A model generated the notes under the pieces. The model saw nothing but the letters and a program-made list of their open reading frames with translations. It was not told the origin of the DNA and did no database searches. From Myxococcales bacterium (GTDB taxonomy: Bacteria > Myxococcota > Myxococcia > Myxococcales > Anaeromyxobacteraceae), in contig JAJZQX010000007.1 of the NCBI GenBank assembly GCA_021806645.1, positions 1 to 64,000 on the forward strand: 64,000 nt of DNA. The letters run 5' to 3'. Made by a program: the position numbers and the translations under genes. This document shows, in pieces, positions 14,111-35,989 of the stretch (the stretch's first letter is position 1; each line of letters begins with the position of its first letter).

Positions 14111-17100
14111 ATGGCGGAGGTCGACCCCACCGCCTCGACGGCCTCACCGGCCGCCGGGTCCCGGACCGGAAACGGCTTCGAGCTCCGCCTCGAGAGAGGC
14201 GGCGCCCACGTCCGCCTCGGCGCGCCCGCCGCCATCGCCGGCCTGCTGGTCGAGCATCTCGATCTCAAGGTGCCCGACATCGCCCTGCCCTTCGACGCCG
14301 GGGGCGGCCCGGCCCAGTTCCGCAACCGGCTCTGCGACCTCGACGCGCTCACCGTGCGGGCCGACCAGGGCCTGGTGTCGGCCTCGGCTGCGCGCCTCGA
14401 CCTGGGCGAGCTCGGGCTGGGCACCCTGGAGGTGTCGCTCCGCGACGGCTTCGCCGAGGTGGGCGGGCGCCTGGCGGGCGGCACCGCCTTCTCGATGCGG
14501 CTCGGCCTCCTGCCCGGCTTCGAGCGCGGCGTGGCGGTGGTGCCTTACGCCCCGCGGCTCTACGGCCCCTCACCGATCCCCGCCGCCGCCTTGCCCCACC
14601 TGGCGGCGCGCGCGCTCACCACGCTCGGCCTCCCCGACGATCCGCTGCCGCTCCTGGCGCGCCGGCTGCTCGTCAGCCGTGGCTGGAAGGTGCCGCGCGA
14701 GGGTGGCGTCCGGCTGGCCGCCGCCACGGTGGCCCCCGGTGGAGTCAGGCTGGCCTGGACGCGCGAGGTGGCGGCGCCGCCGGCCGCCCCGAACGACCCC
14801 GACCTGCTGGCGGCGGTGGAGGGCGCGCGCGCCTTCGCGGAGGCCGAGGCGCTCGCGGCCGCTGGCGACTGGGCCGGGGCCCGGGAGGCGTGGCTGGCCT
14901 CGCCGGCGCCCAGCACCCACGCCTTCGCCGCCGATCGGCTCCTCTCGCTCCTCTGCCTCGACGAGCGGTACCACGACGAGGCGCTCGACCTCGCCGCCGG
15001 CTGGCTGCAGCGCCGGCCCGGCTTCGCGCCGGCGCTGGCCGCCGAGGCCTGGGTCCGCTCCGCGCGCGGCGAGCACGGCCGGGCCGCCGCGGCCCTGGTG
15101 ACGCTGGCGGAGGGATCGGTGACCGCCGGCGAGCGGCTGGCCGCGGTCGCCGCCGCCGAGGCGGTGCTGGCCCTGCCCGGCATCGACCGGGACCTGACCG
15201 CCCGGGCCGTCGAGGCGGCGCTTTCCGCCAGGCGGGATCACCTCCCCGCGCTGCGGGCGCTGCGGACCCTGGCCCGGGAACGGGGCGACAAGGGGGCGCA
15301 GATCCGCGCGGCCCGCCGGGTGCTGGCCCACGCGCCGACCGATCTCGAGAAGGCGCGGGCCCACGCCGAGCTGGGCGAGCTGCTGCTGGAGAGCGACCCA
15401 CCCGGCGCGCGGCTCCACCTGGACCGGGCGCTGCGGCTAGCACCCGACGACGCCGACTCGCTCTTCGCGCTGGCCCGGGCCTGTGCCGCCGCCGGCGAGC
15501 ACCTGCGGGCGGTCGGCGCGCTCGACCGGCTGCGGACGCTGCGGCAGCGGTCGGGAGATCGCTCCGGTGCCGCCGACCTGGCCCTGGAGGCCGGCGCCAT
15601 CTGGGACGAGCGGCTCGGCCACGTCGAGAACGCCCTGCTCCGCTACCGCGAGGCCGCCGAGCTCGGTCCGCGCGCCGCCGAGGCCCATCGGCTCGCGGCC
15701 GGCTGCGCGGAGCGGCTGGGGCGCTGGGCCGAGGCGGCCGACCACCACGCCGCGGCCCTGGCGGTGCTCGACCGGTCCGCGCCCGGCGCCGGCGCGCTGG
15801 CCGCCGCGCACCACCTCGCCCTGGCCGACGTGGCCGAGCGCCACCTCGACGATTCGGCGGGCGCCGCCACGCACCTCGAGGCGGCCCAGGCGACGGCCCC
15901 GCTCGACTCGGCCCAGCTCTCCCGGCTGGCGGCGCTCCACCGGCGGCTCGGCCGCCACGCCGAGCTGCTCCACGCGCTCGACCGGCTGGCCCCGCTCACC
16001 GCGGTGGCCACCAGCCGCGCCGCCCTGCTGGCCGAGGCCGGGGACCTGGCCCGCGGGCCGCTCGGCCGCCCCGACCTCGCGACCAGCCGCTACGCCGCGG
16101 CGCTCCAGCTCGACCCGACCTGCCGGCCGGCCATCGAGGGGCTGGCGGCCCTGGCGCAGGCGCGTGGCGACGGCCCCGCCGAGCGAGACGCGCTCATGAA
16201 GCTGGTCCCGCTGGCGCGCGACAAGGGCGAGGAGGCCTCCGTCCTGGACCGGCTCGCCGCCGCCAGCGCAAGGGCCGGCGACCTCTCCGCCGCGGCGCGG
16301 GCCCTGGGCGCCGCCCGGCGGGCCGAGCCGTCCCGCGAGCGGCTGGCCGCGGCCTCCGGGCTGGCCCGCCGATCGGGCGACGTCCCGGCGCTGGCGGCCC
16401 TGCTCGCCGAGCAGGCGCAGGCGGCCATCGCCGCCGGCGATCGGGTCGCCGCCGCGGCCGCCTGGCGCGAGCGGGCCGAGCTGCTCTCCGAGAGCGACCC
16501 GTCGCTGGCCCTCACCGCGCTCGACGAGGCCCGCGGGCTCCACCCCGGCGATCCGGCGCTGGTGCGGCTCGAGGCGACGCTGGCCGAGCGGGTCGGCGAT
16601 CACCACCGGGCGCTGGGGGCGCTGCGGACTCAGCTGGCGAGCCTGCCCGCCGACGACGGCGCGCTGGAGCTCCGGGCGGCGCGGGCCGCCCTGGCGGCCG
16701 GCGAGCTCCCGGCGGCGCGGGCCCACGCCGAGCGGGCCATGGCGGCCGGCGTCCGCGAGGCGGGCGACGTGCTGGTCGGCGCGCTGGAGCAGGGGGGCGA
16801 TCGGGCCGGGCAGGTCGAGGCGCTCTCGCGCGCCGGCCGCCACCTCGAGGCGGCGTCGCTGGCGGAGCGGCTCGGCGACACGCCGGCCGCCATCCGGGCG
16901 CTGGACCAGGCCGCCGGGGCGAAGGAGACCGCCGGAGAGGCGCTGCGCCAGCTGCTCCGGATCCACGCCGCCGCCGGTGACGCCAGGGCGACCGCCGCCG
17001 TGCTGCTGGCCGCGGCCAGGCGCGCCGGCGGACGCGAGGGGGCCGCGCTGGCGTGGCGCGCCTTCTCGCTGACCGGCGACGCCGGCGCGCTCGACCTCGC

Positions 17101-20100
17101 CGCCGAGTCCGACCCGTCCTTCGCCCCCGGCCGCGCCGAGCGGGCCGCCCGCCGCGCCGCCACCGACGCCGCCGCGGCGCTCGACGACGCCGAGGCGGCG
17201 CTTGCCGGCGACGGGCTCGACCCGGATCGCCGGCCCGAGCTGCTCCGCCTGGCCGCCGAGCTGGCGGAGCGGGCCGGAAGCCGCGAGCTGGCCCGCCGGC
17301 GGCTGGCCGCCTACTGCCAGACCGGCAACCCGACCGACTCGGAGCTGGCCCACCTCGCCGAGCTCCACCGGGCCGCCAATGACCTCGATGGGCTGGCCAC
17401 CGCCCTGGCCCGCCGGGTCGCGAGCGCGCCCATCACCGAGGTGCACCTGCTCCACCTCGACCTGGCGAGGCTGCTGGCCCGCATAGGCCGCGAGCCGGAG
17501 GCGGTGGAGAGCTGGCGCGCCGTGCTCCGGTTCGATCCGGTGGCGCTGGAGCCGCTGCGGGCCATGCTGGTCCCCTCCAGCGCCGCGCTGCTTCACGACG
17601 GCGAGCGCGAGTCGCTGCTGCGGACGCTGGCGGACCACGACATGGCCAGCGACGCCGAGCGGGCCGCGGCCTGGGACGCGCTGGCCGAGGTCCGCGCCGG
17701 CGCGGGTGATGGCGCCGGCGCCGCGGAGGCCCGCCGCTCCGCCGCGCGACATCGCGGCGACGACGACGAGGGGCTGGAGCGGCAGGTCCAGGTGGCGATG
17801 GCGGCCGGTGACCACCGGCTGGCGGCGCGGCTGCAGCTGCAGCGAGCGCGCCGGGCGCTGGCCGCCGGCGAGGCGGGCGCCGCCGAGCGGCTGGCCGAGG
17901 CCGGGCTGGCGCTGGTCGAGGCCGGTGACGTCACCGATGGTGAGGCGACGCTCCGCGAGGCGCTCGGCCTGCACCCCGAGCCGGAACGGACCCGGGGCGC
18001 GCTCACGGCGCTGGCGAAGCTGGCGGCGGAGCGGGCCGACAGCCCCGCCGAGGCCGAGACGCTGGCGGCGCTGGCGCCGCTCGTGCCGACCGGACAGCGG
18101 CCCGACCTGCTCATCCGGATCTCGCAGCTCCGCGCCGCCGCCGGCGACGGCGCCGGGGCCTTCGAGGCCGCCGAGCAGGCCCGCACCCTGGCGCCCCGGA
18201 CGCTGGCGGCGGTCCGCCAGGCGCGGCTGGCGGCGGCCGCGATCGGGGACGAGCGGTCGGTGGCCACGCGGCTCGAGGAGGAGGCGCGGCTAGACGCCGG
18301 CGAGGCCGGACCGCTCCTGCTGGAGCGAGCCAGGCTGCTGGCGAAGCTGGGCCAGGCCGAGGCGGCCGACGACGCCTACGGCGAGAGCCTGGCGCTGCTG
18401 CCGCCGGACCAGGGACTGGCCCTGGAGCAGGTCCGCCTGCGCCGGGGCCACCTCCCCGGCCGGCCCGCCTCCGAGCCCCTGGAGCGGTTCGCCGGGCGGC
18501 TGGGGGACTCGACGGCCGCTGCCAAGGCGCAGGCCGCCGCCGCGGCGCTGGCGTGGGAGGCGGGGGACGGTGGGGCGGCGCTCCGCTGCGCCCGGCGGGC
18601 GTTTGGCCGCTCGCGCCAGACACCGGCGCTGGCCGGGCCCCTGCTGGCGCGCCTGCTCTACGCGCAGGGCTCCTTCGCCGAGGCCCTGGTGGTCCACCGG
18701 ACCCTGCTCGAGCTCGGCTTCCCCGGCTTCGAGGAGTCGGAGATCGTCACTCTGAGCCGCCAGCTGGCCGAGCTGGCCTCCGAGGCGCAGGACCCGGCGC
18801 TGGCGCTGCAGGCCTACGACCGGCTGCTGGCGCTCCGGCCGCAGGAGTCCGGCGCCGCGCTCGAGAGGTTCCGGATCGACCCAGACCGCGGGCGGGCCGT
18901 GACCGCCCTCGAGTCGGTGGCCAACCAGGTCCGCTCCCGGGCCTCGCGGGTCGAGCTGCTGGCCGCCGCCGCCGAGGGCGCCCTGTCCGAGCTGCACGAC
19001 CGCCGGCTCGGCGAGCGGCTCTTCCGCGAGGCTCGCGCCGAGGCCTCCTTCACCCCGGGGCTCGAGCTGGCGCTCGACCGGCGGAGGGTGGCCGCGACAC
19101 GGCTCGGCGAGCTGGGGCCCGAGGCGCTGCTGGGCGCGCTCCACGACGCGGCCGAGGCGGCGATGGCGGCCGGCGCCACGGCCGCCGCCCGCGAGCTGCT
19201 CGAGGAGGCCGCGGGGGAGCAGCGGCGGCGCGGCATGAAGCCGGGCGCCGCGCGTGATCTCCTCGAGCTGGAGAAGCTCCTGGCGGCCGAAGGCGAGGAC
19301 GGCGCGGCGGCGGTCCGGGCCCGGGAGGCGGCAGAGCTGCTGGCCGAGGCCGGCGACGCCGCGGCGGTGGCGGTGGCGCGGCGGGCGCTGGAGCGCGACC
19401 CGGGCGATCCCGACGGACTTCGCCGGCTGGCCGGGATCGAGGCCCGGTTCGATCCCGCGGCGGCCGAGGCGACGCTGCGGCGTGCGCTCGCCGAACAGCC
19501 CGGCGATCCCTCGATCGAGTCGCAGCTGCTCGGCCTGCTCGAGCGGGAGGGCCGGCAGGGGGCTCGCGCCAGGCTGCTCCTCGATCGCGCGAGGCGGCAG
19601 CCCGATCCGGCGGCGCGAGCGGGGCTGCGGCGCGAGGCGGCGCGGCTGCTGGCCGAGACCGGAGAGGCCGACGACACCGTGCTGGCGGCCGACACGCTGC
19701 TGGCGGTGACCACCGACCTGCCCCAGGACTTCGGGGCCATCCGCCTGGCGGCGTCGGCGCTGGTGGCCTGCGGCCGGACCTCCGAGGCGGTCCGCTTGCT
19801 GGCCGAGCTGAGTCGGGCCAGCCCGGACGAGCAGGCGCTCCCCGATCAGGACGAACAGGCGGGCGGACCTCGTCGGCCACCACCGGCGGCCCCGGCCCCG
19901 GAGCCGCTCGAGGAGGCGTTCTCGCCGCCGGAGCAGCCTCCCGGGCCGGGCTCCGAGCCGGTCGCCGGACCGCGTACCCTCGAGTTTCCCGCGCTGGACC
20001 GCCGAGACCGCGAGCCGGCGGCGGCCGAACGTCCGGTCGAGGAGCCGGAGCAGCCTCCGGAACCGGTACCGGCGCCGGCCTTCGAGGCGATCGTCGGGCC

Positions 20101-22132
20101 GAGGACGCTCGAGTTCCCCGCCGTGCGGCCGCCGCCCACCGAGGAGCTCCCCGCGGCGGAGCAGGCCGCGACCGATCCGACCCCGCTCGAGCCGGCTCCG
20201 GCCGGAGCGGGCGCGCGGTCCCGCGACCTGGCCCTGCTCGCCGAGGCGGCCACGGATCCGGCGTCTCGCGCGGAGGCGTGGCTGGCGTCGGCCGAAGCGG
20301 CGCGCCAGGCCGGGGCGGCGGTCGAGGAGGTGCGGCTGGCCATCGAGCTGGCCCGCGAGTCCGAACCCGACGCCCCCGCGCCCTGGGCCGCCCTGGCCGA
20401 CCTGGAGCTGGCGCACGGCGACGCCATCGCGGCGGCGCGAGCCTACCTGGCCGTCTCGATCCGGACCGAGGGGATGGCCGCGGCCGACGCGGCGCTGGTC
20501 GCGGCCCGGCTCTTCCTCGAGCAGGGGCACACGCCCGAGGCCGTCCGCGCGATGCGCGCCGCCACGCTGGGCGAACCGGCCAGCGTGCCACCGGAGTTGC
20601 TCCAGGCGGTCGAGGCGCTGGCCAGCGGGTGGCCCGAGGCCGGAGCCGGCCTGCTGGCGCTCGTCGCTCCCGCCGGGCTCGGGGTGGCCGGCCGGGCCGT
20701 CCACGATCAGCTTCACCTGATGCTGGACTGGAGTGCCGGGGTCCTCGAGATCGCCGATCTGGAGCACGGGGCGGACCTGGATACGGTGCCGGCACCCGAG
20801 GAGGCGGCGGCCGAGGAGGCGGCACCCGAGGAGGAGGAGACCGCGGGGACTGGATTCGAGGAGTTCACGCCCGAGGAACCCGGACACGGGGAACGGCCAT
20901 TCGACGAGCCCGCGTTCGAACCATCGACCGAACCCGTCCTGGAGGTTCAGCCGGAGCCGGCCTTCCCGCCCACTGAGGCCAGGACATCCCCGCAGCCCGT
21001 GGCTGACGCCGAAGCGGCCATCCCCGACTGGGCCTGGGATCCGGCCGACCCCGCGCCGCCCGAGGCCTTCCCTCCCCCGGCGGTGGCCCTCGCCGAGCCT
21101 CACTTCGCCCCACCGCCGGCCGAGGCGCTGGAGCGGGCCCTGGCGATCGCCCGGCTGGATCCGGCCAACGCCGACGCCCTGCTGGAGGTGGCCGGGCTGG
21201 CCAGCCAGCTCGCCACCACCGCCGCCCCCTTCGACCACGATCGGCTGGCCGAGCTGGCCCGGCTGGCCCGGTCGATCGCCGCCTTCGTGGCGCCTGGACG
21301 GGCCAGCGCCCCGGAGGCGCCACCGCTCGCCATCGCGCTCTCCGAGGCCGCCCGCGACCGCGTCGCACTCCCCGAGACCGTCGGCCCGCTCGGCAAGCTG
21401 CTGTCGATGCTCACGCCGCAGCTCGAGCCGCTCTTCCCCGCCGACCTGGAGCGGCACGGCGTCACCGCCGCCAACCGGTTGGTGGCGCCGCGAACCCCCG
21501 CGGTCCGTGAGCCGCTCGAGGCCGCCGCCGGCCTGCTCTCCGCCCGCGCCCACGCCACCTTCCTGGTCGACCGCCCCGGCACGCTGATCGCCCTCGAGAA
21601 CACCCGGCCGCCGGCCTTGATCGTCCCAGCCGATTTCGTGGCGCTGCCGCTCGGCGCCCGCCGCTTCCTCGCCACCCGGGCCCTCGACCAGCTGGAGCGC
21701 GGCGGAGCGCTGGTGGGCAAGTTCGCGCCGCGGGACGTCGGCATCCTGCTGGAGCTGGCCTGCCGTTTCGCCGGCGGGCGACCCCCGTCGCTCGGGCTCC
21801 CGGCGGCTCGCGCCGGCGCCTTCCTCTCGGCCATGGCCCAGGCGGTGCCGCCGGTCCTGGCGGCGCGGGCGGCTTCGCTCGGCCCGCCGGCGGCCGAGGA
21901 GCTGGCCGGAGCCGACCTCGAGGCGCTGGCCGACGCGCTCCAGCGGACCAGCGCCCGGGTGGCGCTGCTGGCCACCGGAGATCCAGCCGGAGCCTTCACC
22001 GCGCTGGTCGCCGCCGGGACGGCCCAGCCGCTCAGCGGTGCCGAGGCGCTCCGGCTGCCCTTGCTGCGGGAGCTGGCGACGCTGGCCCTCTCCGAGCCCT
22101 TCCTCGACCTAAGGGTGGCGGTGGTAGGCTGA
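14111..22132 (+). CDS. Giant tetratricopeptide-repeat protein
   Basis: A 2673-aa protein starting at an ATG with the weak purine site ctagga upstream. No signal peptide or clear membrane helix is visible. Residues about 1-210 are a non-repetitive beta-rich domain. From about 220 to 1930 it is almost continuous Ala/Leu/Glu-rich TPR-like helices (for example AAGDWAGAREAWLASPAPS). A Pro/Glu-rich linker (about 1930-2040) holds two copies of GPRTLEFPA at 1953-1961 and 1996-2004. A further acidic linker at about 2225-2330 precedes a C-terminal helical domain. It probably serves as a scaffold. I do not recognise an orthologue with a known role; extreme GC and Ala content make the antisense frames open too, but those are shadows. 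Confidence 0.85.
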   Translation: MAEVDPTASTASPAAGSRTGNGFELRLERGGAHVRLGAPAAIAGLLVEHLDLKVPDIALPFDAGGGPAQFRNRLCDLDALTVRADQGLVSASAARLDLGELGLGTLEVSLRDGFAEVGGRLAGGTAFSMRLGLLPGFERGVAVVPYAPRLYGPSPIPAAALPHLAARALTTLGLPDDPLPLLARRLLVSRGWKVPREGGVRLAAATVAPGGVRLAWTREVAAPPAAPNDPDLLAAVEGARAFAEAEALAAAGDWAGAREAWLASPAPSTHAFAADRLLSLLCLDERYHDEALDLAAGWLQRRPGFAPALAAEAWVRSARGEHGRAAAALVTLAEGSVTAGERLAAVAAAEAVLALPGIDRDLTARAVEAALSARRDHLPALRALRTLARERGDKGAQIRAARRVLAHAPTDLEKARAHAELGELLLESDPPGARLHLDRALRLAPDDADSLFALARACAAAGEHLRAVGALDRLRTLRQRSGDRSGAADLALEAGAIWDERLGHVENALLRYREAAELGPRAAEAHRLAAGCAERLGRWAEAADHHAAALAVLDRSAPGAGALAAAHHLALADVAERHLDDSAGAATHLEAAQATAPLDSAQLSRLAALHRRLGRHAELLHALDRLAPLTAVATSRAALLAEAGDLARGPLGRPDLATSRYAAALQLDPTCRPAIEGLAALAQARGDGPAERDALMKLVPLARDKGEEASVLDRLAAASARAGDLSAAARALGAARRAEPSRERLAAASGLARRSGDVPALAALLAEQAQAAIAAGDRVAAAAAWRERAELLSESDPSLALTALDEARGLHPGDPALVRLEATLAERVGDHHRALGALRTQLASLPADDGALELRAARAALAAGELPAARAHAERAMAAGVREAGDVLVGALEQGGDRAGQVEALSRAGRHLEAASLAERLGDTPAAIRALDQAAGAKETAGEALRQLLRIHAAAGDARATAAVLLAAARRAGGREGAALAWRAFSLTGDAGALDLAAESDPSFAPGRAERAARRAATDAAAALDDAEAALAGDGLDPDRRPELLRLAAELAERAGSRELARRRLAAYCQTGNPTDSELAHLAELHRAANDLDGLATALARRVASAPITEVHLLHLDLARLLARIGREPEAVESWRAVLRFDPVALEPLRAMLVPSSAALLHDGERESLLRTLADHDMASDAERAAAWDALAEVRAGAGDGAGAAEARRSAARHRGDDDEGLERQVQVAMAAGDHRLAARLQLQRARRALAAGEAGAAERLAEAGLALVEAGDVTDGEATLREALGLHPEPERTRGALTALAKLAAERADSPAEAETLAALAPLVPTGQRPDLLIRISQLRAAAGDGAGAFEAAEQARTLAPRTLAAVRQARLAAAAIGDERSVATRLEEEARLDAGEAGPLLLERARLLAKLGQAEAADDAYGESLALLPPDQGLALEQVRLRRGHLPGRPASEPLERFAGRLGDSTAAAKAQAAAAALAWEAGDGGAALRCARRAFGRSRQTPALAGPLLARLLYAQGSFAEALVVHRTLLELGFPGFEESEIVTLSRQLAELASEAQDPALALQAYDRLLALRPQESGAALERFRIDPDRGRAVTALESVANQVRSRASRVELLAAAAEGALSELHDRRLGERLFREARAEASFTPGLELALDRRRVAATRLGELGPEALLGALHDAAEAAMAAGATAAARELLEEAAGEQRRRGMKPGAARDLLELEKLLAAEGEDGAAAVRAREAAELLAEAGDAAAVAVARRALERDPGDPDGLRRLAGIEARFDPAAAEATLRRALAEQPGDPSIESQLLGLLEREGRQGARARLLLDRARRQPDPAARAGLRREAARLLAETGEADDTVLAADTLLAVTTDLPQDFGAIRLAASALVACGRTSEAVRLLAELSRASPDEQALPDQDEQAGGPRRPPPAAPAPEPLEEAFSPPEQPPGPGSEPVAGPRTLEFPALDRRDREPAAAERPVEEPEQPPEPVPAPAFEAIVGPRTLEFPAVRPPPTEELPAAEQAATDPTPLEPAPAGAGARSRDLALLAEAATDPASRAEAWLASAEAARQAGAAVEEVRLAIELARESEPDAPAPWAALADLELAHGDAIAAARAYLAVSIRTEGMAAADAALVAARLFLEQGHTPEAVRAMRAATLGEPASVPPELLQAVEALASGWPEAGAGLLALVAPAGLGVAGRAVHDQLHLMLDWSAGVLEIADLEHGADLDTVPAPEEAAAEEAAPEEEETAGTGFEEFTPEEPGHGERPFDEPAFEPSTEPVLEVQPEPAFPPTEARTSPQPVADAEAAIPDWAWDPADPAPPEAFPPPAVALAEPHFAPPPAEALERALAIARLDPANADALLEVAGLASQLATTAAPFDHDRLAELARLARSIAAFVAPGRASAPEAPPLAIALSEAARDRVALPETVGPLGKLLSMLTPQLEPLFPADLERHGVTAANRLVAPRTPAVREPLEAAAGLLSARAHATFLVDRPGTLIALENTRPPALIVPADFVALPLGARRFLATRALDQLERGGALVGKFAPRDVGILLELACRFAGGRPPSLGLPAARAGAFLSAMAQAVPPVLAARAASLGPPAAEELAGADLEALADALQRTSARVALLATGDPAGAFTALVAAGTAQPLSGAEALRLPLLRELATLALSEPFLDLRVAVVG

Positions 22133-23985: not shown

Positions 23986-24292
23986 CGTGTCCTGTGTCCG
24001 GATCCGGCCGCGACGCGCCATCGGTACCTCGATGCTACGAAGACTGGCTGCGACGAAGACAGGCTGCGACGAAGGCTGCGCAGATCTTGACCATCCTACT
24101 GGCCAGGGCTGACAGCGCCAGTTACCCAGTTACGCGGTTTTCGGGGCGACGGGACGACGACGCGGCGAAACGGCTCTCTCCCACTCTCGCCGGTCGCGGA
24201 ACGTGATCGAAGGGCGTATAGGACGAGGAGGATGTCGATTCCCCGCGTGGGCTTCACCGGGGCCCTCCTGGCGGCCCCTTCGACAGGCTGGG
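23986..24292. other. Non-coding stretch with short imperfect tandem repeat
   Basis: About 300 bases without a credible gene. Bases 24035-24080 hold imperfect copies of a 12-16-bp unit related to ctgcgacgaaga. GC is lower in 24085-24130, which may contain the promoter of the CheB-like gene, but no clear -35/-10 pair was found. Confidence 0.4.
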
Positions 24293-24939
24293 ATGACTTC
24301 GAAGAGCATGCAGCCTCGCGGAGAGCGCGAACGCCCTGCCGAGCGCCTCGTCGCCATCGGCGCGTCGGCCGGGGGCGTCGAGGCCTTGACCCGCCTCGCC
24401 GGCTGCCCGGAGACCTCCCGGCCGCGGTGGTCGTCGTCCTCCACCATCCGGCCGGCTACCGGAGCAACCTGGCCTACCTGCTGGCCAAGGCTGGGCCCCT
24501 GCCGGCCGACGAGGCTCGCGACGGAAGCCCGCTGGTGCCGGGGCGCATCCTGGTCGCCAGGCCGGGCCGTCACCTGGTGCTCCAGGGTGGTCGGGCCAGG
24601 CTCCTCGACTCGGCGCCCGTGAACCGGGTCAAGCCGTCCATCGACCTCCTGTTCCTGTCCGGTGCTCGCGAGTACGGGCCGCGACTGGTGGCCGTCGTCC
24701 TGTCGGGCACGCTCAATGACGGCAGCGCGGGGCTGGTCGCGGCGCGGCGCTCGGGCGGCGTGGCCGTGGTCCAGGACCCGCACGACGCGCTCTTCTGGGA
24801 CATGCCGTGGAACGCCATCGACGCGGCCGGCGCCGATCACTGCGTTCCATTGAAGGAGATGGCTCCGTTGCTGGACCGGCTGGTGCGCCAGGAGCCGGGG
24901 CGGGACCGGGGGGGGGGGGGGGCTCCGGCGATCGCCTAG
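24293..24939 (+). pseudogene. CheB-type protein-glutamate methylesterase, frameshifted
   Basis: A stand-alone CheB methylesterase domain without a receiver domain. The first part, LVAIGASAGGVEALTRL, contains the catalytic Ser of the GASAGG motif. The remainder continues in the next frame (LPGDLPAAVVVVLHHPAGY with the catalytic His, then LSGTLNDGSAGL with the catalytic Asp). Joining them needs one extra base between 24402 and 24403. The three catalytic residues are all intact, so the break is recent or a sequencing error. The C-terminus runs into a G15 tract (24908-24922). CheB removes methyl groups from chemoreceptors; no che genes are adjacent. Confidence 0.8.
24908..24922 (+). repeat. G15 homopolymer
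   Basis: Fifteen consecutive G residues inside the 3' end of the CheB-like frame. A length change would alter only the last few residues and the stop position. Such tracts can slip during replication, and are also common places for sequencing errors. Confidence 0.9.
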
Positions 24940-26534: not shown

Positions 26535-27365
26535 TCAGAATGCCAGCGAGACGCCGATGGGCAGCGGCGTGGGCGCGCCCCGCGCCGTCCCGCCCGGCAA
26601 GGCCACCGCGCCGCGGGACCGGTGCAGCAGCCACGGCACGCCCCAGCCGATGGCCGAGCCGACCACCGCGCCCACCACCACGTCGGTGAGGTAGTGCTTG
26701 TCGTCGGCGATCGCCAGCCAGCCCACCACCACCCCCGCGCCCAGCCCCACGCCGAGCACCCAGGGCGCGCCGCGTTCACCGCGCAGGTGGGCCACGGTGC
26801 TGGTCGCGGCCGTCAAGGAGAAGGCGAGCGCGGTGTGGCCCGAGTAGAAGGAGAGGATGTCGTCGGGCCTGGGGCGCCGGTCCGGATCACGGAAGTTGCG
26901 GTAGTGGATGAACGGTCGCGGCCGGCCGAGGGAGAGCTTCACCAGCTGGCTGACGGTGCCGGAGAGCGCCACCGCCTCGGTGACCACCAGCAGGTCGGTG
27001 AACCCCTGCCCCCAGCTGCCGCCGTTGGCCCGCGACGCCGCCAGCGTGAAGGTGGCCGCCGAGACGGGGAACAGCGCATAGGCCAGCAGGTCGGAGCCGA
27101 CCTCGGCCAGCTCGCGGTCCTCCCAGACCAGCCGATCCCGGGCCCAGGCGTCGAGCGCGCCGGGCTCGCAGATGCGGCAGGTGGTGGGGACCAGCCAGGC
27201 CTTGCCCGCGGCGGTGCCGCCCCAGACGGCCAGCGCCGCGGTGGTGACGGCCAGGTCCACGGGGAGGTCGAGGCGAAGCGGCCGAGGCTCGGCGCGCGCG
27301 GCCGGCGCGGCCAGGAGCAGCGCGAGGGCGGCGAGCAGCGGCATCGGGATCACCTTGGCGGTCAT
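26535..27365 (-). CDS. PAP2-family lipid phosphatase, exported or membrane
   Basis: A 276-aa protein and the last gene of the leftward five-gene operon, starting 3 bases after the preceding stop. A signal or first helix (MPLLAALALLLAAPAARA) is followed by several membrane segments. The three PAP2 catalytic motifs are present: KLSLGRPRPFI (KX6RP), SFYSGHTA (usually PSGH) and DDKHYLTDVVVG (H and D of motif 3). Such enzymes dephosphorylate lipid phosphates such as undecaprenyl pyrophosphate. Next to a polysaccharide synthase, recycling of a lipid carrier or trimming of a lipid phosphate is plausible but unproven. Confidence 0.87.
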   Translation of the reverse strand: MTAKVIPMPLLAALALLLAAPAARAEPRPLRLDLPVDLAVTTAALAVWGGTAAGKAWLVPTTCRICEPGALDAWARDRLVWEDRELAEVGSDLLAYALFPVSAATFTLAASRANGGSWGQGFTDLLVVTEAVALSGTVSQLVKLSLGRPRPFIHYRNFRDPDRRPRPDDILSFYSGHTALAFSLTAATSTVAHLRGERGAPWVLGVGLGAGVVVGWLAIADDKHYLTDVVVGAVVGSAIGWGVPWLLHRSRGAVALPGGTARGAPTPLPIGVSLAF

Positions 27366-27368
27366 GCT

Positions 27369-28682
27369 TCAGAACCGCTGCTCGCAGCCGAGGGTGAAGG
27401 TGCCGTGCAGCCGCCACTCACCGGCCTGGAACTCCTGCCGTTCCAGGTTGGCGCCGGCGGAGAGCACCAGCGCCCGGCCGAGCCGCTTCCGGACCTCCAG
27501 CCCGGCCCGCCGCGAGCGGAGCCGCAGGATCTCGGCGGTCGGGATGGGCTGGTCCGGAGAGACGCCGGCCCCGGCGGTTGCCGAGAGGAAGGTGTCGCCG
27601 TCGTCGAGGTAGTAGCGGACCAGCAGCGACCCGGAGAGGGAGGAGCCGGCGACGCCGGGCGTCACGCTGGGACGGATCGTGAAGAGCCAGTCGCCGTGAT
27701 AGGCGCTCAGCGAGCCGGTCCAGATGGTCACCTCGCCGGCTGAGAACCGGAGGTGGCGCGCCCCGGCCGAGACCTCGAGGCCGGCCGGGAGCGACTGGTA
27801 GAGCTCGGCGCCGGCGCGGACGGCCGGGAAGATCGAGGCGGCCGACCCGCCGAGGTTCAGGTAGGCGTAGGTGCCGTCGCGGAAGCGCGGGTAGGCGTCC
27901 AGCTCCAGCTGGTAGCCGGTGGAGCCGAAGCGATCGGCCCGGTTGACCCGGAGGATGACCGAGCCCGGATCGAAGCGGTGCGTGGCGCTCACCGAGACCA
28001 GCCACCACGGGCTGAAGGTCCTGTCGAAGGTGTCGAGCGTCACCTCCACCGCGGCCCTGGAGCGCTGCGCCAGTTCATTCAGGTCGTCGCGCAGGCGGCG
28101 CGACGGCTGGTGGTCCGGGTCGACCTCCAGGGCGGCCTGGGCGGCGGCGAGCGCGCCGGCCACGTCCCCCTCCGACTTGAGGATCCGCGCCTTCCGGTAG
28201 AGCAGCCCGACGCTCCGCGGCCGCAGCGCCAGCCCTTCATCGCAGGCCCTGAGCGCCTCGCCTGGCCGCCCGGCCCACCACTCCAGGTCGGCCAGCGCCT
28301 CGCGGGCCTCGACGTTGGCCGGCTGGCGCGCCAGCACGTGGCCGAACGCCTCGCGCCCGGCCTCGTACTGGCCGTCCCAGGCGTGGAGCCGACCCAGGTG
28401 GATCCGGACGTCGTGGTCGTCGGGGCTGCGGGCCAGGGCCCGGCGGCAGAGGGCGCGCGCCTCCTCCCTCGTCTCCTTGGCGGAGAGCTTCAGGGCCTGG
28501 CGGAAGAGGGCGTCGGAGTCCTCCTCCTTGGCGGCGGCAGGTGCTGGCGCGGAGGCCGGCGCGGGGTCGGACTCGACGGCGAGCGCGCCCACCGGCCCGA
28601 GCAGCAGCCAGAGGGCGACGAGGCGAGCCGGGGGCGACCGGCCCCACGGGAGGGGTCGGCAATGTGGTGACGCTGCGCTCAT
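27369..28682 (-). CDS. YaiO-family outer-membrane beta-barrel protein with TPR domain
   Basis: A 437-aa exported protein; the ATG at 28682 overlaps the glycosyltransferase stop (ATGA). After a signal peptide and an Ala/Pro linker, residues about 55-205 are TPR units (for example RALARSPDDHDVRIHLGRLH). Residues about 215-437 are alternating beta strands with aromatic ends, finishing LHGTFTLGCEQRF, the typical final strand with a C-terminal Phe that marks outer-membrane barrels. The TPR-plus-barrel layout parallels exopolysaccharide export porins such as PgaA. Its operon with a GT2 synthase suggests it exports the polymer. Confidence 0.82.
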   Translation of the reverse strand: MSAASPHCRPLPWGRSPPARLVALWLLLGPVGALAVESDPAPASAPAPAAAKEEDSDALFRQALKLSAKETREEARALCRRALARSPDDHDVRIHLGRLHAWDGQYEAGREAFGHVLARQPANVEAREALADLEWWAGRPGEALRACDEGLALRPRSVGLLYRKARILKSEGDVAGALAAAQAALEVDPDHQPSRRLRDDLNELAQRSRAAVEVTLDTFDRTFSPWWLVSVSATHRFDPGSVILRVNRADRFGSTGYQLELDAYPRFRDGTYAYLNLGGSAASIFPAVRAGAELYQSLPAGLEVSAGARHLRFSAGEVTIWTGSLSAYHGDWLFTIRPSVTPGVAGSSLSGSLLVRYYLDDGDTFLSATAGAGVSPDQPIPTAEILRLRSRRAGLEVRKRLGRALVLSAGANLERQEFQAGEWRLHGTFTLGCEQRF

Positions 28683-30148
28683 CTCTCTCCTCCCGGCGCG
28701 GGCTTCGAATCGGTCGCCGGCGGGATCGCGCCCCGCCCTTCCGGCGGCGCCTGCCAGGAGGCGCTCCGTTCCATCCGGCCCCAGCGGCCGGGGCGGCGCA
28801 CCAGCCAGAGCAGCGTGGCCTGGAGCCGCCACCAGGCGGTCAGTTGCCGGTAGCCGAGGTTCTCCAGCACCATCGCCGCCATCAGGAGGCCCAGGTCGGC
28901 CGGGCGCTCGAAGGTGTGAAAGGCCATCTCCTCGAGCAGCAGCGCGCTGGCGGAGAGGAGCAGCCCCATGCCCATGGCGGCCAGCAGGAAGGCGAAGAAG
29001 GCCGGCCCGCTCAGGGTGCCCGACAGCGCCGCCACCACCATGAGGGCGAGCCCCACCAGCTCCACCAGGGGTCCCAGCGCCTCGAAGAGCAGCATCACCG
29101 GGAAGGCCAGCCAGCCGGCGGCGCCGCCGCGGCGGTGGAAGAGCAGCCTCCGGTTGGCGGCCAGGCTCTCCAGCAGCCCGCGCTGCCAGCGCATGCGCTG
29201 CGAGCGGAGCACCCGGAGCGACTCGGGCGCCTCGGTCCAGCAGATGGGGTCGGGCACGAAGACGATCCGGTAGGGCGTGCCGGCCAGCCGGTGGACGCGG
29301 TGGAGCCGGACCACCAGGTCCATGTCCTCGCCGACGGTGTCGGTGCGGTACCCGCCGGCCGCGATCACCGCCTCGCGCCGGAAGACGCCGAAGGCGCCCG
29401 AGATGATGAGCATGGCGTTGAGCGGCGACCAGCCCATGCGGCCGAAGAGGAAGGCGCGGAAGTACTCCACCACCTGGATGCGGGCCAGCCAGCTGCGCGG
29501 CATGCCCACCTCCTCCAGGAAGCCCTCCGACACCCGGCAGCCGTTGGCGATGCGGATGGTGCCGCCGCAGGCGACGGTGGTGGCGTCCTCCAGGAAGGGA
29601 CGGACCGCCAGGGTCAGGCTGTCGCGCTGGAGCACCGAGTCGGCGTCGACGATGCACACCAGCGGGCAGCGGGCCGAGTTGATGGCGGCGTTGAGGGCGT
29701 CGGCCTTGCCGCCGTTCTCCTTGTCGATGACCCGCAGGTTGCGGAAACGCGCCGAGCGGTACATGCCGAGCAGGCGCCGGGACGGGACCGAGATCCGGGT
29801 GGCCTCGGGGAAGGGGCGCAGGTCGAACTCCCGCTTCAGCACCTCCAGGGTCGAGTCCCTGGAGCCGTCGTTGACCACCACGATCTCGAAGGACGGGTAC
29901 TCCAGCTGGAGCAGCGACCAGATCGAGGCGACGATGGTCGCCTCCTCGTTGAAGGCCGGGACCAGCAGCGAGACGGGCGGCTCGAGGCCGGAGTAGGACT
30001 GCGGCAGCGCCGAGACCGAGCCGGCCTCTCCGCCACGCCTGATCACCCGGATCGCGATCAGGTCGAGCAGGATGTAGGTGAGCTGGAGCCCGATGAAGTA
30101 GGCGAGGAAGACCCACTGGACGGCGACCAGGAGCGGGGGCCCGGTCAC
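28679..30148 (-). CDS. Processive family 2 glycosyltransferase (polysaccharide synthase), membrane
   Basis: A 489-aa protein starting at a GTG that overlaps the HEAT-protein stop. One N-terminal helix (about 6-35) precedes the GT-A domain. Catalytic motifs are all seen: DGS (94-96), DAD (168-170), GED (273-275) and QRMRW (317-321), the last being the Q(Q/R)xRW signature of processive synthases such as PgaC, HasA and BcsA. Three or four membrane helices follow (about 345-440). It probably polymerises a sugar and moves the chain across the inner membrane. No PilZ domain is visible, so cyclic-di-GMP control is not evident. Confidence 0.9.
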   Translation of the reverse strand: MTGPPLLVAVQWVFLAYFIGLQLTYILLDLIAIRVIRRGGEAGSVSALPQSYSGLEPPVSLLVPAFNEEATIVASIWSLLQLEYPSFEIVVVNDGSRDSTLEVLKREFDLRPFPEATRISVPSRRLLGMYRSARFRNLRVIDKENGGKADALNAAINSARCPLVCIVDADSVLQRDSLTLAVRPFLEDATTVACGGTIRIANGCRVSEGFLEEVGMPRSWLARIQVVEYFRAFLFGRMGWSPLNAMLIISGAFGVFRREAVIAAGGYRTDTVGEDMDLVVRLHRVHRLAGTPYRIVFVPDPICWTEAPESLRVLRSQRMRWQRGLLESLAANRRLLFHRRGGAAGWLAFPVMLLFEALGPLVELVGLALMVVAALSGTLSGPAFFAFLLAAMGMGLLLSASALLLEEMAFHTFERPADLGLLMAAMVLENLGYRQLTAWWRLQATLLWLVRRPGRWGRMERSASWQAPPEGRGAIPPATDSKPAPGGER

Positions 30149-31227
30149 GGCAGCGTCTCCGCCAGCACGTGGGTGAGGATGTCGCGGGCGAAGCGGTCCT
30201 GGAGCTGCCCCCGCAGCCGGGAGAGCTCCTCCGGGTCGCCGAAGCGGCCGGAGAGGAGCGCCTGCGCCGCCCGGTAACGCACCCACCACTGCCGGTCGGC
30301 CAGCATGGTCAGGAGCAGGTCCAGCTGGGCCGGTCCGCCCAGGCGCCCGAGCGCGGTCGCCGCCTGGGTTCGCACCGGCCAGGCCGGGTGGCCGCAGAGC
30401 CGAACCACGTCGGGGAGCAGCTCCTCGCCGCGCGCCTGCTTCAGCGCCGCCGTGAGCACCTCGGGGACCTGGCTCGGGGCGAGGAGCCTCCGCACCACGT
30501 TCGCGGCCGCCCTCTCACCGAAGACCGAGAGGAGAGGCAGCAGCCGTCGCAGCTCGGCGATCTCGAGGCCTGGCACTTGGGCCGCGAAGGCGGCCGCCAG
30601 GGCCGTCATCTCGGCCTCCCCCAGATCGGCGTCGTGCAGCACGGCCGACACCTGCGCCAGCGGCCAGTCGGTGCGGCGGCGCAGGCGCCTCCAGAGCTCG
30701 GGAGTCGCGGCGGTCCGATCGACGTGGAAGAGGGCGCGCGCCGCGGCCAGGCAGATGGTCGAGCCGGGCTCGTCGAGGAACGGCCGGACCAGCTCGAAGT
30801 CATCCGGCTCGCCCAGGTGGCGGAGCGTCCGGAGCGCCAGCAGCCGGTCCTGCGCCCCGCGCCGGCGCAGCGCACGACGAGCGGCGGCGAGGGCGTCCAC
30901 GGCGTGGGCCACGCGGTTGAGCCCTTCGCGCGCCGTCCGGCCTCGGAGGCCGTCCTGAAGCTGGTTCCAGAGGAGCAGGACGCTCGCCTCGTCCTTCGGC
31001 GCCAGCGCCGGGACCTCGGGCGTCTCGCCCATGGCGGCCTGGTAGAGGATGGGCCGCCAGGTGTCGAGGCAGCGGAGGTGGCGCCGGTCGCGGCGCCGCT
31101 TCATGGCCCGCATCCAGGTCACCTGGAGCGCGAGCAGCACCGTCAGGCCGAGGCTCACCAGGCCGGCCGCGAACGCGATCCAGATGAGCGTCCCACTCTC
31201 GACCGAGGGCGCCAGGGCGGTGTTCAT
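30145..31227 (-). CDS. HEAT-repeat protein with N-terminal membrane helix
   Basis: A 360-aa protein. The ATG at 31227 gives MNTALAPSVES followed by a single membrane helix (LIWIAFAAGLVSLGLTVLLA, about residue 13-32) and a basic segment. The remainder is helical with HEAT-type repeats (for example CGHPAWPVRTQAATALGRLG and LADRQWWVRYRAAQALL). It precedes and overlaps the GT2 gene. A role as an inner-membrane scaffold for the synthase is inference from the operon only. Confidence 0.8.
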   Translation of the reverse strand: MNTALAPSVESGTLIWIAFAAGLVSLGLTVLLALQVTWMRAMKRRRDRRHLRCLDTWRPILYQAAMGETPEVPALAPKDEASVLLLWNQLQDGLRGRTAREGLNRVAHAVDALAAARRALRRRGAQDRLLALRTLRHLGEPDDFELVRPFLDEPGSTICLAAARALFHVDRTAATPELWRRLRRRTDWPLAQVSAVLHDADLGEAEMTALAAAFAAQVPGLEIAELRRLLPLLSVFGERAAANVVRRLLAPSQVPEVLTAALKQARGEELLPDVVRLCGHPAWPVRTQAATALGRLGGPAQLDLLLTMLADRQWWVRYRAAQALLSGRFGDPEELSRLRGQLQDRFARDILTHVLAETLP

Positions 31228-31264
31228 GGGGAGCGGGCGGGCCAGCGGCCAGGGCGGCCCGCCG

Positions 31265-31648
31265 TCACCCGGGTGGCAGGCCGAGCAACTCCCGGACGGT
31301 GGCCAGGAGCCGCTTGGCGTTGAAGGGCTTCTGCAGGTACTCGCGAACACCCAGCTCGCGGGCCTGGACCAGGTCGTCGGGAAGCTGGCGGGAGCTGAGC
31401 ATCAGCACCGGCACCCCCGACCACCGCGGTGCCCGACGCATGGCGGCCACCACCGAGAAGCCATCGGTGTAAGGCAGCATCACGTCGACCACGGCCACGT
31501 CGGGGGGTTCGCCCTGGGCGATGAGCGTGATGGCACGCCTCCCGTCGCTGACCACCGTGGGACTGAAGCCGGCCCGCCGGAAGATGGCCTCGAGCATCCC
31601 GGCGATGGTGGCGTCGTCCTCGACGATCAGGACACTGATGGACTTCAC
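31265..31648 (-). CDS. Single-domain response regulator (CheY-like receiver)
   Basis: A 127-aa receiver domain with no output domain. The GTG start at 31648 has gggagga upstream and puts the first strand (ISVLIVEDD) at the normal place. Acidic pocket D11/D12, phospho-acceptor D55 (VVDVMLP), and conserved K107 in LQKPF are present. It is the first gene of the leftward operon, 37 bp before the HEAT gene. It probably controls the synthase complex by protein contact rather than DNA binding. No sensor kinase is adjacent. Confidence 0.88.
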   Translation of the reverse strand: MKSISVLIVEDDATIAGMLEAIFRRAGFSPTVVSDGRRAITLIAQGEPPDVAVVDVMLPYTDGFSVVAAMRRAPRWSGVPVLMLSSRQLPDDLVQARELGVREYLQKPFNAKRLLATVRELLGLPPG

Positions 31649-34324: not shown

Positions 34325-35872
34325 CTACGGCCCCGCCCGCCTGAGCCTTCCGGCCAGCCGCAGCGCGTCCTCGTTGACCCCGGCGGTGAGCGTCCGGCCC
34401 TTGTCGCCGGCCACCATCTTGTCGATGGCGGCGGCCGCCGCGGTCCCGCTGGCCCCCAGCGGCGCGCGGCGCGCCAGCCAGTCGAGTCCCAGCACCGCGT
34501 GGTAGCGGGCGGCCAGCTCGGCGTCGGTCTGGACCGGCTTCACCAGGGCCTCCACCAGCGCGCCGGCCTGCCCGGCGTCACCGGCCCGCCCGACCTCCAG
34601 CGCGGCACGGCCACGGACCGCGGGGTTGGGATCCCCGAGCTTGCCCGACCAGCAGCTCGCCGCCCCGGCGCAGGCCTTGGCGGCGTCGAGCCGCGCCACC
34701 ATCCCCTCCAACATCGCCTTGCGGGTGGCCGGGCAGCCGGCGGCGCAGCGGCTGGCCGCGCCGGCCACCAGCGGACGCTCCGCCTCCCCGCCGATGAGCG
34801 AGAGGGCGTCTAGCGGACCATCGCGAGCGTCGAGGTCGCCGCTGGTGGCGGCGGCCCGGAGCGGAACCAGCGCGGAGGCGTCGCCGATGCGGGCCAGCGC
34901 CTCGGCGTACCGGTCACGCGCGTTGGGATCCTTCGACCTGGCCAGCAGCGCGCCGATGGGGGCCACGCCCTGCACGGCGCGCAGCCGCCCCAGCGACTCG
35001 GCGGCGAAGACGCGGACGAAGAGCTGGGCGGCCGGCTCCGGGTCGGTGTAGCCGAGCGCCGTGAGCAGCGCCGGGATCGCCCCGGGGCCGCCCACGTCGC
35101 CGAGCAGCTGCGCCGCCTTGGCCCGCAGCGCCGCGGGGTGGACTCCCTTCGACGAGGCCCAGCGCGAGAGCTCGGCGTCCTTCCCCTCCACCACCGCCGC
35201 CAGCGGTGCCGACATCGGCCTCCCCAGCTGCGAGGCCGCGAACGCCGCCTCGGCGAAGAAGAAGGCCCCCGGCCGCTCCAGGTAGAGCATCTTCAAGATG
35301 GTCGGGATGGCCCGCGGATCGCCGATCCGTCCGAGCGCCAGCAGCGCCTTCCTGATGGCGAACGGCTCCCCCTGCTCGTCGTTGACCACCGTCAGGAGCG
35401 GCGCGACGCCGGCCGGATCGCCGATGGCACCGAGCGCGTCGATGGCGGCCACCTGCGTGAAGGGGTCGCTGGAGCCGGTGAGCTTGCCCAGCACCCCGAT
35501 GGCCTCGCGGGCGCGCAGCACGCCGAGCGCGGTGGCGATCTTCTGGTTGGCGTCGTTGACGTCGCGCTCCGGCTTCCCGGAGAGGTCGAGCGCCTCCATG
35601 AGCGGCTTCACCGCTCCCTGGTCGCCGATCTCGCCGAGGATCAGGGCCGCCTCGGCGCGCGCCCTGGGGGCCTGCTTGAGCACCTCGAGGAGCGGCTTCA
35701 CCGCCGCCTTCCGGTCGCCAGGCGCGGTGCGGGCCTGCTGCAGCGCCGCCAGCTTCTCGTCGGTCCGGTTGCGCGAGGCGGCCCGCTCCGCCCACCCCTC
35801 GGCGTCCTTGGGATCGAAGCAGGCGGTGAGCAGGGCGAGCGCGGCGAAGGCGACGAGGTGGACGTGACGCAT
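34325..35872 (-). CDS. HEAT-repeat lipoprotein
   Basis: A 515-aa protein. The ATG at 35872 opens a lipoprotein signal with lipobox LLTAC (cysteine near residue 17). The mature protein is built from HEAT/PBS-lyase-like repeats, for example IDALGAIGDPAGVAPLLTVV and LLALGRIGDPRAIPTI, which form a superhelical binding surface. Four cysteines (CAAGC, KACAGAASC) cluster near residues 400-440. It probably binds another envelope protein. The upstream region is shared with fmt, transcribed in the opposite direction. Confidence 0.82.
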   Translation of the reverse strand: MRHVHLVAFAALALLTACFDPKDAEGWAERAASRNRTDEKLAALQQARTAPGDRKAAVKPLLEVLKQAPRARAEAALILGEIGDQGAVKPLMEALDLSGKPERDVNDANQKIATALGVLRAREAIGVLGKLTGSSDPFTQVAAIDALGAIGDPAGVAPLLTVVNDEQGEPFAIRKALLALGRIGDPRAIPTILKMLYLERPGAFFFAEAAFAASQLGRPMSAPLAAVVEGKDAELSRWASSKGVHPAALRAKAAQLLGDVGGPGAIPALLTALGYTDPEPAAQLFVRVFAAESLGRLRAVQGVAPIGALLARSKDPNARDRYAEALARIGDASALVPLRAAATSGDLDARDGPLDALSLIGGEAERPLVAGAASRCAAGCPATRKAMLEGMVARLDAAKACAGAASCWSGKLGDPNPAVRGRAALEVGRAGDAGQAGALVEALVKPVQTDAELAARYHAVLGLDWLARRAPLGASGTAAAAAIDKMVAGDKGRTLTAGVNEDALRLAGRLRRAGP

Positions 35873-35989
35873 GCTGGAGCCCCCTTTGCACGGAGGATAG
35901 TACCCCGCCCGCCGCCGGTTGGGCCACGGGACGGGACGCTCGGGAGGGGCGCTCGACCGGCCGCCGCCTTCCGCGTATATGCAACGCCC

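Follow-up and report, generated by a model that had tools for sequence, protein, structure and literature searches.

Synthase-dependent secretion of bacterial exopolysaccharides has been surveyed for cellulose, acetylated cellulose, poly-N-acetylglucosamine (PNAG), alginate and Pel; the plan that emerged includes a cyclic di-GMP (c-di-GMP)-binding regulator or co-polymerase, together with periplasmic enzymes that modify the polymer, and HEAT, YaiO and response regulators are not mentioned in it (PMC7112194). Here we describe a five-gene operon at positions 26535-31648, on the minus strand of a 64-kb window (the whole stretch analysed: nucleotides 1 to 64,000 of contig JAJZQX010000007.1, from a Myxococcales bacterium of the Anaeromyxobacteraceae), which in our judgement probably encodes a synthase-dependent machine for polysaccharide export, with a cytoplasmic HEAT-repeat subunit, itself probably controlled by a phosphorylated receiver, taking the place of c-di-GMP control. 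The evidence includes the recurrence of its HEAT gene beside a glycosyltransferase family 2 (GT2) gene of one clade in bacteria and archaea.

Gene content of the operon

The genes are separated by gaps of no more than 37 bp, and there are two 4-bp overlaps. The first (31265-31648) codes for a stand-alone receiver of 128 aa without an output domain (Response_reg, 2.8e-22; Pfam); it begins with a GTG start codon preceded by a AGGGAGGA-like site, and its phospho-acceptor Asp56, Ser86 and Lys108 are all intact. After 37 bp follows a HEAT-repeat protein (30145-31227; HEAT_2, 1.4e-17) with a single N-terminal transmembrane (TM) helix and basic residues after it. It overlaps a processive-type GT2 (28679-30148; Glycos_transf_2, 1.5e-24), which has DGS..D, DAD, GED and QRMRW motifs and C-terminal TM helices, and which in turn overlaps the proposed exporter, a protein with tetratricopeptide repeats (TPRs) and a YaiO outer-membrane barrel (27369-28682; YaiO, 3.5e-56, plus TPRs). 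The last gene, 3 bp further on, encodes a PAP2 phosphatase (26535-27365; PAP2, 1.2e-18) with an N-terminal hydrophobic or signal segment and intact K-X6-RP, SGH and H-X3-D motifs. Gene calls and Pfam thus bear out an earlier, sequence-only reading of the window, in which these five genes had been proposed as an operon with the last four overlapping or nearly so. Pfam detected no PilZ, GGDEF or EAL domain in the five proteins, and no c-di-GMP-binding regulatory domain or co-polymerase was found in the window operon with Pfam and NCBIfam.

A HEAT-GT2 core in bacteria and archaea

A genome scan yielded 80 loci from many phyla, and their neighbourhoods were mapped with purpose-built profile hidden Markov models (HMMs). 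A HEAT gene was found directly 5′ of the clade GT2, or fused to it, in 75 of the 76 loci having upstream sequence, the single exception being L022, with a HEAT gene ~6 kb distant. Since the scan retains best matches, whole classes were sampled as well. The GT2 is carried by 28/291 genomes in the Clostridia sample (~10%), with HEAT in 27/27 testable loci; by 7/337 in the Alphaproteobacteria, with HEAT in 6/6; and by 50/345 in the Bacteroidia (14%), with HEAT in 29 of the 30 loci inspected, counting as present one divergently oriented HEAT gene and leaving L184 without any. Pooling of the three class samples places HEAT beside GT2 in 62/63 testable loci. Elsewhere the module is patchy, including haloarchaea; in Haloarcula and Salinirubellus the receiver, HEAT and GT2 genes form a closely packed trio. 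Three genomes (L080, L086 and L115) have HEAT fused to GT2 in a single open reading frame, and tblastn also located the two side by side on plasmids of haloarchaea, Deinococcus, Mesorhizobium, Erythrobacter, Bacteroides, Paenibacillus and Legionella.

The clade was compared with ten GT2s without HEAT, namely E. coli YaiP, PgaC and BcsA, proteins of ~1100 aa from Prevotella, Sphingomonas and Novosphingobium, and four from the host genome. Their scores against the clade HMM are 32-224 bits, as opposed to >470 bits for clade members, with lower values for partial genes (339 bits for L107 and 356 for L141). The 125 clade rows cluster together (SH-aLRT 92) in a quickly built maximum-likelihood tree, with the HEAT-less GT2s outside, although the root is insecure because the outgroup branches are long. 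The window GT2 lies inside the clade, and its HEAT gene is directly upstream.

Pairwise distances of HEAT and GT2 are correlated over 78 loci (r=0.85; the maximum of 500 permutations was 0.09), and over 31 loci the receiver distances follow those of GT2 (0.70) and HEAT (0.69). Shared ancestry raises all three values, which are therefore to be read as co-inheritance rather than contact. Together with the locus surveys, the distance test rules out chance adjacency of HEAT and GT2; likewise, since the core recurs in more than 100 loci, the gene arrangement is not a matter of chance.

The sequence-only reading had proposed surveying genomes for the same five genes. HEAT and GT2 recur, usually with a receiver, and YaiO is seen in most diderm loci; the neighbourhood survey revealed no PAP2 relative near GT2 in other loci. 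These comparisons support a conserved two-gene HEAT-GT2 core, usually accompanied by a receiver, with YaiO as a diderm add-on, while PAP2 looks specific to the window locus and was rejected as a core part.

Within the phylum, the GT2 is carried by 8 of 195 genomes. None of three other species in the host genus has it; elsewhere in the family it is present in four genomes that belong to a single genus (L143-L146), with 62-65% identity, and in one genome from a further genus (L148), with 94% identity. These close relatives retain receiver, HEAT and GT2; in L144, the sole family relative so examined with Pfam, the YaiO gene separates the receiver gene from HEAT. Phylogenetically, the GT2s of the window and its family relatives cluster with sequences from Lysobacter, Stutzerimonas, Nitrospira and others (12 rows, SH-aLRT 100), separately from other myxococcal copies. 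A myxococcal genome, L149, has the order YaiO-GT2, then receiver-HEAT. High GC content is common to the operon and the 4.14-Mb host genome. Overall, the window operon looks like an accessory module that has spread laterally.

Predicted topology and structure

An N-terminal TM stretch is present in 73/78 HEAT proteins, and in 68 of those 73 more positive charge follows it than precedes it. By the positive-inside rule, the HEAT solenoid is predicted to be cytoplasmic, alongside the glycosyltransferase domain and the receiver.

For structural modelling with AlphaFold2 (AF2) we chose the natural fusion L086, with an alignment of 12 rows, 9 of which were adjacent in-frame HEAT-GT2 pairs read through a single stop as Q, purely as a modelling device. 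The model (predicted local distance difference test score, pLDDT, 79.5; predicted template modelling score, pTM, 0.73) consists of a TM helix, a HEAT solenoid at 79-444 and a synthase fold. Foldseek comparison of the fusion with the PDB placed hyaluronan synthases first (E 8.5e-13), followed by cellulose and chitin synthases. The motif and fold hallmarks of processive membrane GT2s are present, with the D, DxD, (T/G)ED and QxxRW motifs invariant or nearly so in the clade alignment and the synthase TM fold modelled on this fused relative.

The window TPR-YaiO protein was modelled with a pLDDT of 90 as ten TPR helices (5 repeats) and 14 barrel strands. E. coli BcsC heads its PDB matches; PelBC (9h80) and 4y25, an entry labelled "polysaccharide outer membrane", rank lower. 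Its YaiO part scores 190.8 bits against a cut-off of 32 for the TIGR04390 / PF19413 family.

Export and signalling components in relatives

A YaiO match was found in 42/56 diderm loci and 0/25 Bacillota loci, as expected for an outer-membrane exporter. Many monoderm loci have instead, adjoining HEAT-GT2, a conserved protein of ~640-1090 aa without a Pfam family, which might correspond to TPR-YaiO in the wall or outside the cell. It can be seen at 838-2907 in L108, 3392-5614 in L047, 8235-11501 in L061 and in ~40 further loci, mostly monoderm.

A receiver lies within operon range in 63 of the 78 loci with enough flanking sequence; it adjoins HEAT in archaea and is near HEAT in many bacteria. 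Alignment of the stand-alone receivers of related operons shows Asp56 and Lys108 each conserved in 41/42. Histidine kinase or Hpt genes occur near the module in some relatives. A clostridial branch with the order VTC-DUF4956-CotH-unknown-HEAT-GT2 is without a receiver: CotH kinase, an unknown protein of ~720 aa, HEAT and GT2 occupy 3954-11440 in L151 and 3977-11841 in L153 (minus strand), and VTC and DUF4956 were confirmed in L153.

The statement of the sequence-only reading that no PilZ or c-di-GMP domain is seen holds for the five window proteins, but does not extend to all relatives, some of which have GGDEF genes beside the module, and others a receiver fused to Hpt or GGDEF. L038, L055, L061, L086 and others have GGDEF (and Hpt) domains joined to the receiver that adjoins HEAT. 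In lineages with such receiver-GGDEF fusions, c-di-GMP may be made locally.

Polymer and accessory genes

Sugar-supply genes adjoin the module in some distant relatives. In Paenibacillus (L077) the order is HEAT-GT2-receiver-nucleotide-sugar dehydrogenase-GlmS-GlmU-GlmM, and the operon of the haloarchaeon Halosolutus includes GlmS and a sugar-phosphate nucleotidyltransferase; across all loci, a nucleotide-sugar dehydrogenase is found in 13 and GlmS in 6. For the L077 dehydrogenase the highest scores are with the general subfamily and UDP-N-acetylmannosamine (UDP-ManNAc) dehydrogenase, not UDP-glucose dehydrogenase, so that the acid could be an N-acetylhexosaminuronic acid. These neighbours suggest a polymer containing N-acetylhexosamine (HexNAc) in the lineages that have them. 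Similarly, a sulfatase-fold protein resembling lipoteichoic acid (LTA) synthase, fused to GT2 or near it in 12 loci (Bacteroidota, Elusimicrobia and others), suggests a phospho-substituted polymer there. In L076, L083, L098 and L101 (Sphingobacterium, Chryseobacterium and Kaistella) the fusion of GT2 with the LTA-synthase-like protein is ~1140 aa long, and YaiO is convergent downstream.

Proposed mechanism and alternatives

We propose that the GT2 would polymerise UDP-sugars in the cytoplasm and pass the chain along a TM channel of its own, in the manner of hyaluronan, chitin and cellulose synthases. The HEAT protein, with its single TM helix, would be an obligatory synthase subunit, packed on its cytoplasmic side also where the two are separate proteins. 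The receiver, phosphorylated by a kinase encoded elsewhere, would probably dock on HEAT and switch the synthase, a role held in known systems by c-di-GMP with PilZ or PgaD/Alg44. The TPR-YaiO protein would then conduct the chain, which probably includes HexNAc, through the periplasm and release it via a BcsC-like barrel, with PAP2 as an accessory periplasmic phosphatase.

Several observations weigh against this scheme. The window operon has no kinase gene next to it and no sugar-supply genes within it, so that a HexNAc product of the window system is an extrapolation from distant relatives. HEAT cannot be a mere receiver adaptor, because the receiver is missing in about one-fifth of the operons and in the CotH-bearing clostridial branch, and c-di-GMP may take part in some relatives, since GGDEF domains adjoin the module there.

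The operons lacking a receiver also bear on the view, which we consider unlikely, that HEAT does no more than help the synthase to assemble or keep it stable, with the receiver controlling transcription or something unrelated. Besides the operons in which HEAT occurs without a receiver, the natural fusions, which join HEAT to GT2 only, would fit it; the position of the receiver next to or near HEAT, its distances tracking those of both partners (r ~0.7) and its lack of a DNA-binding domain by Pfam speak against it. If, on the other hand, the GT2 were non-processive and added one sugar onto a lipid, the barrel would serve something else and PAP2 would recycle the carrier, an idea that draws on the frequent action of PAP2 phosphatases on undecaprenyl pyrophosphate or lipid phosphates. 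It is very improbable in view of the near-invariant processive-type QRMRW and GED motifs, the full synthase membrane fold in the model of the fused relative, the close coupling of GT2 to TPR-YaiO in most diderm loci and the absence of PAP2 from relatives.

Two other alternatives concern the product. In a divergent PNAG system of the Pga/Ica type, the GT2 would make poly-N-acetylglucosamine, with HEAT substituting for PgaD. Among NCBIfam models the GT2 does match PgaC_IcaA best, and some relatives have amino-sugar supply genes, but the 136 bits fall far under the cut-off of 422, E. coli PgaC is not a member of the HEAT clade, hyaluronan synthases head the fold matches, and neither a PgaB deacetylase nor PgaD nor a PgaA-family protein (24 of 367 bits with the PgaA model) was matched among the five genes; PNAG was accordingly rejected, and a divergent version of it seems to us quite unlikely. 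The hyaluronan synthase match itself would agree with a glycosaminoglycan-like polymer of alternating N-acetylglucosamine and uronic acid, HEAT helping to hold a dual-specificity synthase, as would the dehydrogenase in 13 loci and its position beside GlmS/GlmU/GlmM in Paenibacillus. A fold match does not give specificity, though, the dehydrogenase is nearer the general subfamily and UDP-ManNAc dehydrogenase than UDP-glucose dehydrogenase, and neither it nor the Glm genes are present in the window; we regard this product as unlikely.

Returning to the receiver-controlled exporter, a broader version of it would make HEAT-GT2 an additional ancient and widespread polysaccharide machine of bacteria and archaea, its synthase switched by a phosphorylated receiver through a HEAT co-polymerase, and not by c-di-GMP, with the export part swapped according to envelope type (TPR-YaiO in diderms, the unnamed protein of ~700 aa or more in monoderms). 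We give this generalisation somewhat less than an even chance. Should the proposed mechanism prove right, a surface polymer yet to be characterised would be produced by many organisms, signalling from receiver to synthase would operate alongside c-di-GMP and transcription, and a cytoplasmic HEAT subunit would offer a new handle on the gating of processive synthases.

Other features of the window

A CheB-type methylesterase-like gene at 24203-24939 (plus strand) is apparently split over two frames, with the N-terminal VAIGASAGGVEALTRL in one and the remainder in the other; the frame shift, near 24400, is either a mutation or an assembly error. Another HEAT-repeat protein, not related to that of the operon and bearing a lipoprotein-like signal (LLTAC), is encoded on the minus strand at 34325-35914, 3 kb from the operon. 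The TPR-rich open reading frame at 14111-22132 (plus strand), with 2673 aa, is unusually long for the region.

Comparison with known systems

Like the surveyed synthase-dependent systems, the window operon combines an inner-membrane synthase glycosyltransferase with a TPR/outer-membrane pore protein in one compact, laterally spread operon; unlike them, the module has a cytoplasmic HEAT subunit and a receiver, lacks PilZ, and exists in a pore-less version in monoderms and archaea. Cellulose (Bcs) was rejected, with CelA at 65 of 699 bits and no PilZ or BcsB family match among the five proteins, as was alginate, with no Alg8, Alg44 or AlgE family match at E 0.01 (NCBIfam, Pfam). Family scores, the clade tree, folds and neighbourhood surveys thus support the sequence-only reading of an uncharacterised synthase-dependent exopolysaccharide system; what they point to is a machine distinct from Pga, cellulose and alginate, with HEAT and receiver instead of c-di-GMP control.

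The E. coli yaiP-yaiX-yaiO locus also combines a GT2 with a YaiO barrel, but YaiP is outside the clade (65 bits vs >470 for almost every member), YaiO is shorter in E. coli, and there is neither HEAT nor receiver. Class I hyaluronan synthases, which the synthase half resembles most closely in fold (TM-score ~0.6 on the target), share 14-16% identity with it and have no HEAT partner. BcsC is the protein closest in fold to TPR-YaiO of the window, which differs in having a 14-strand barrel and five TPRs, and reaches 14.7 of 858 bits with the BcsC-family model.

Our literature search, with most subscription papers outside its reach, yielded no paper describing the HEAT-GT2 module as a system. The gene table of C. 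perfringens NELoc-2 lists CotH, a 685-aa protein, a HEAT protein of 377 aa and a glycosyl transferase of 466 aa, with the label "chitin synthase" in the gene list; HEAT and glycosyl transferase are not recognised there as a pair or system (PMC2879425). Compared by order and size alone, not sequence, these genes match the clostridial branch (L151, L153), and this long-annotated locus would gain a testable function if the proposed mechanism is true. We regard the module as a variant of synthase-dependent secretion, which shares the synthase and TPR/pore plan but not the c-di-GMP feature, and stands outside the Pga, Bcs and alginate families.

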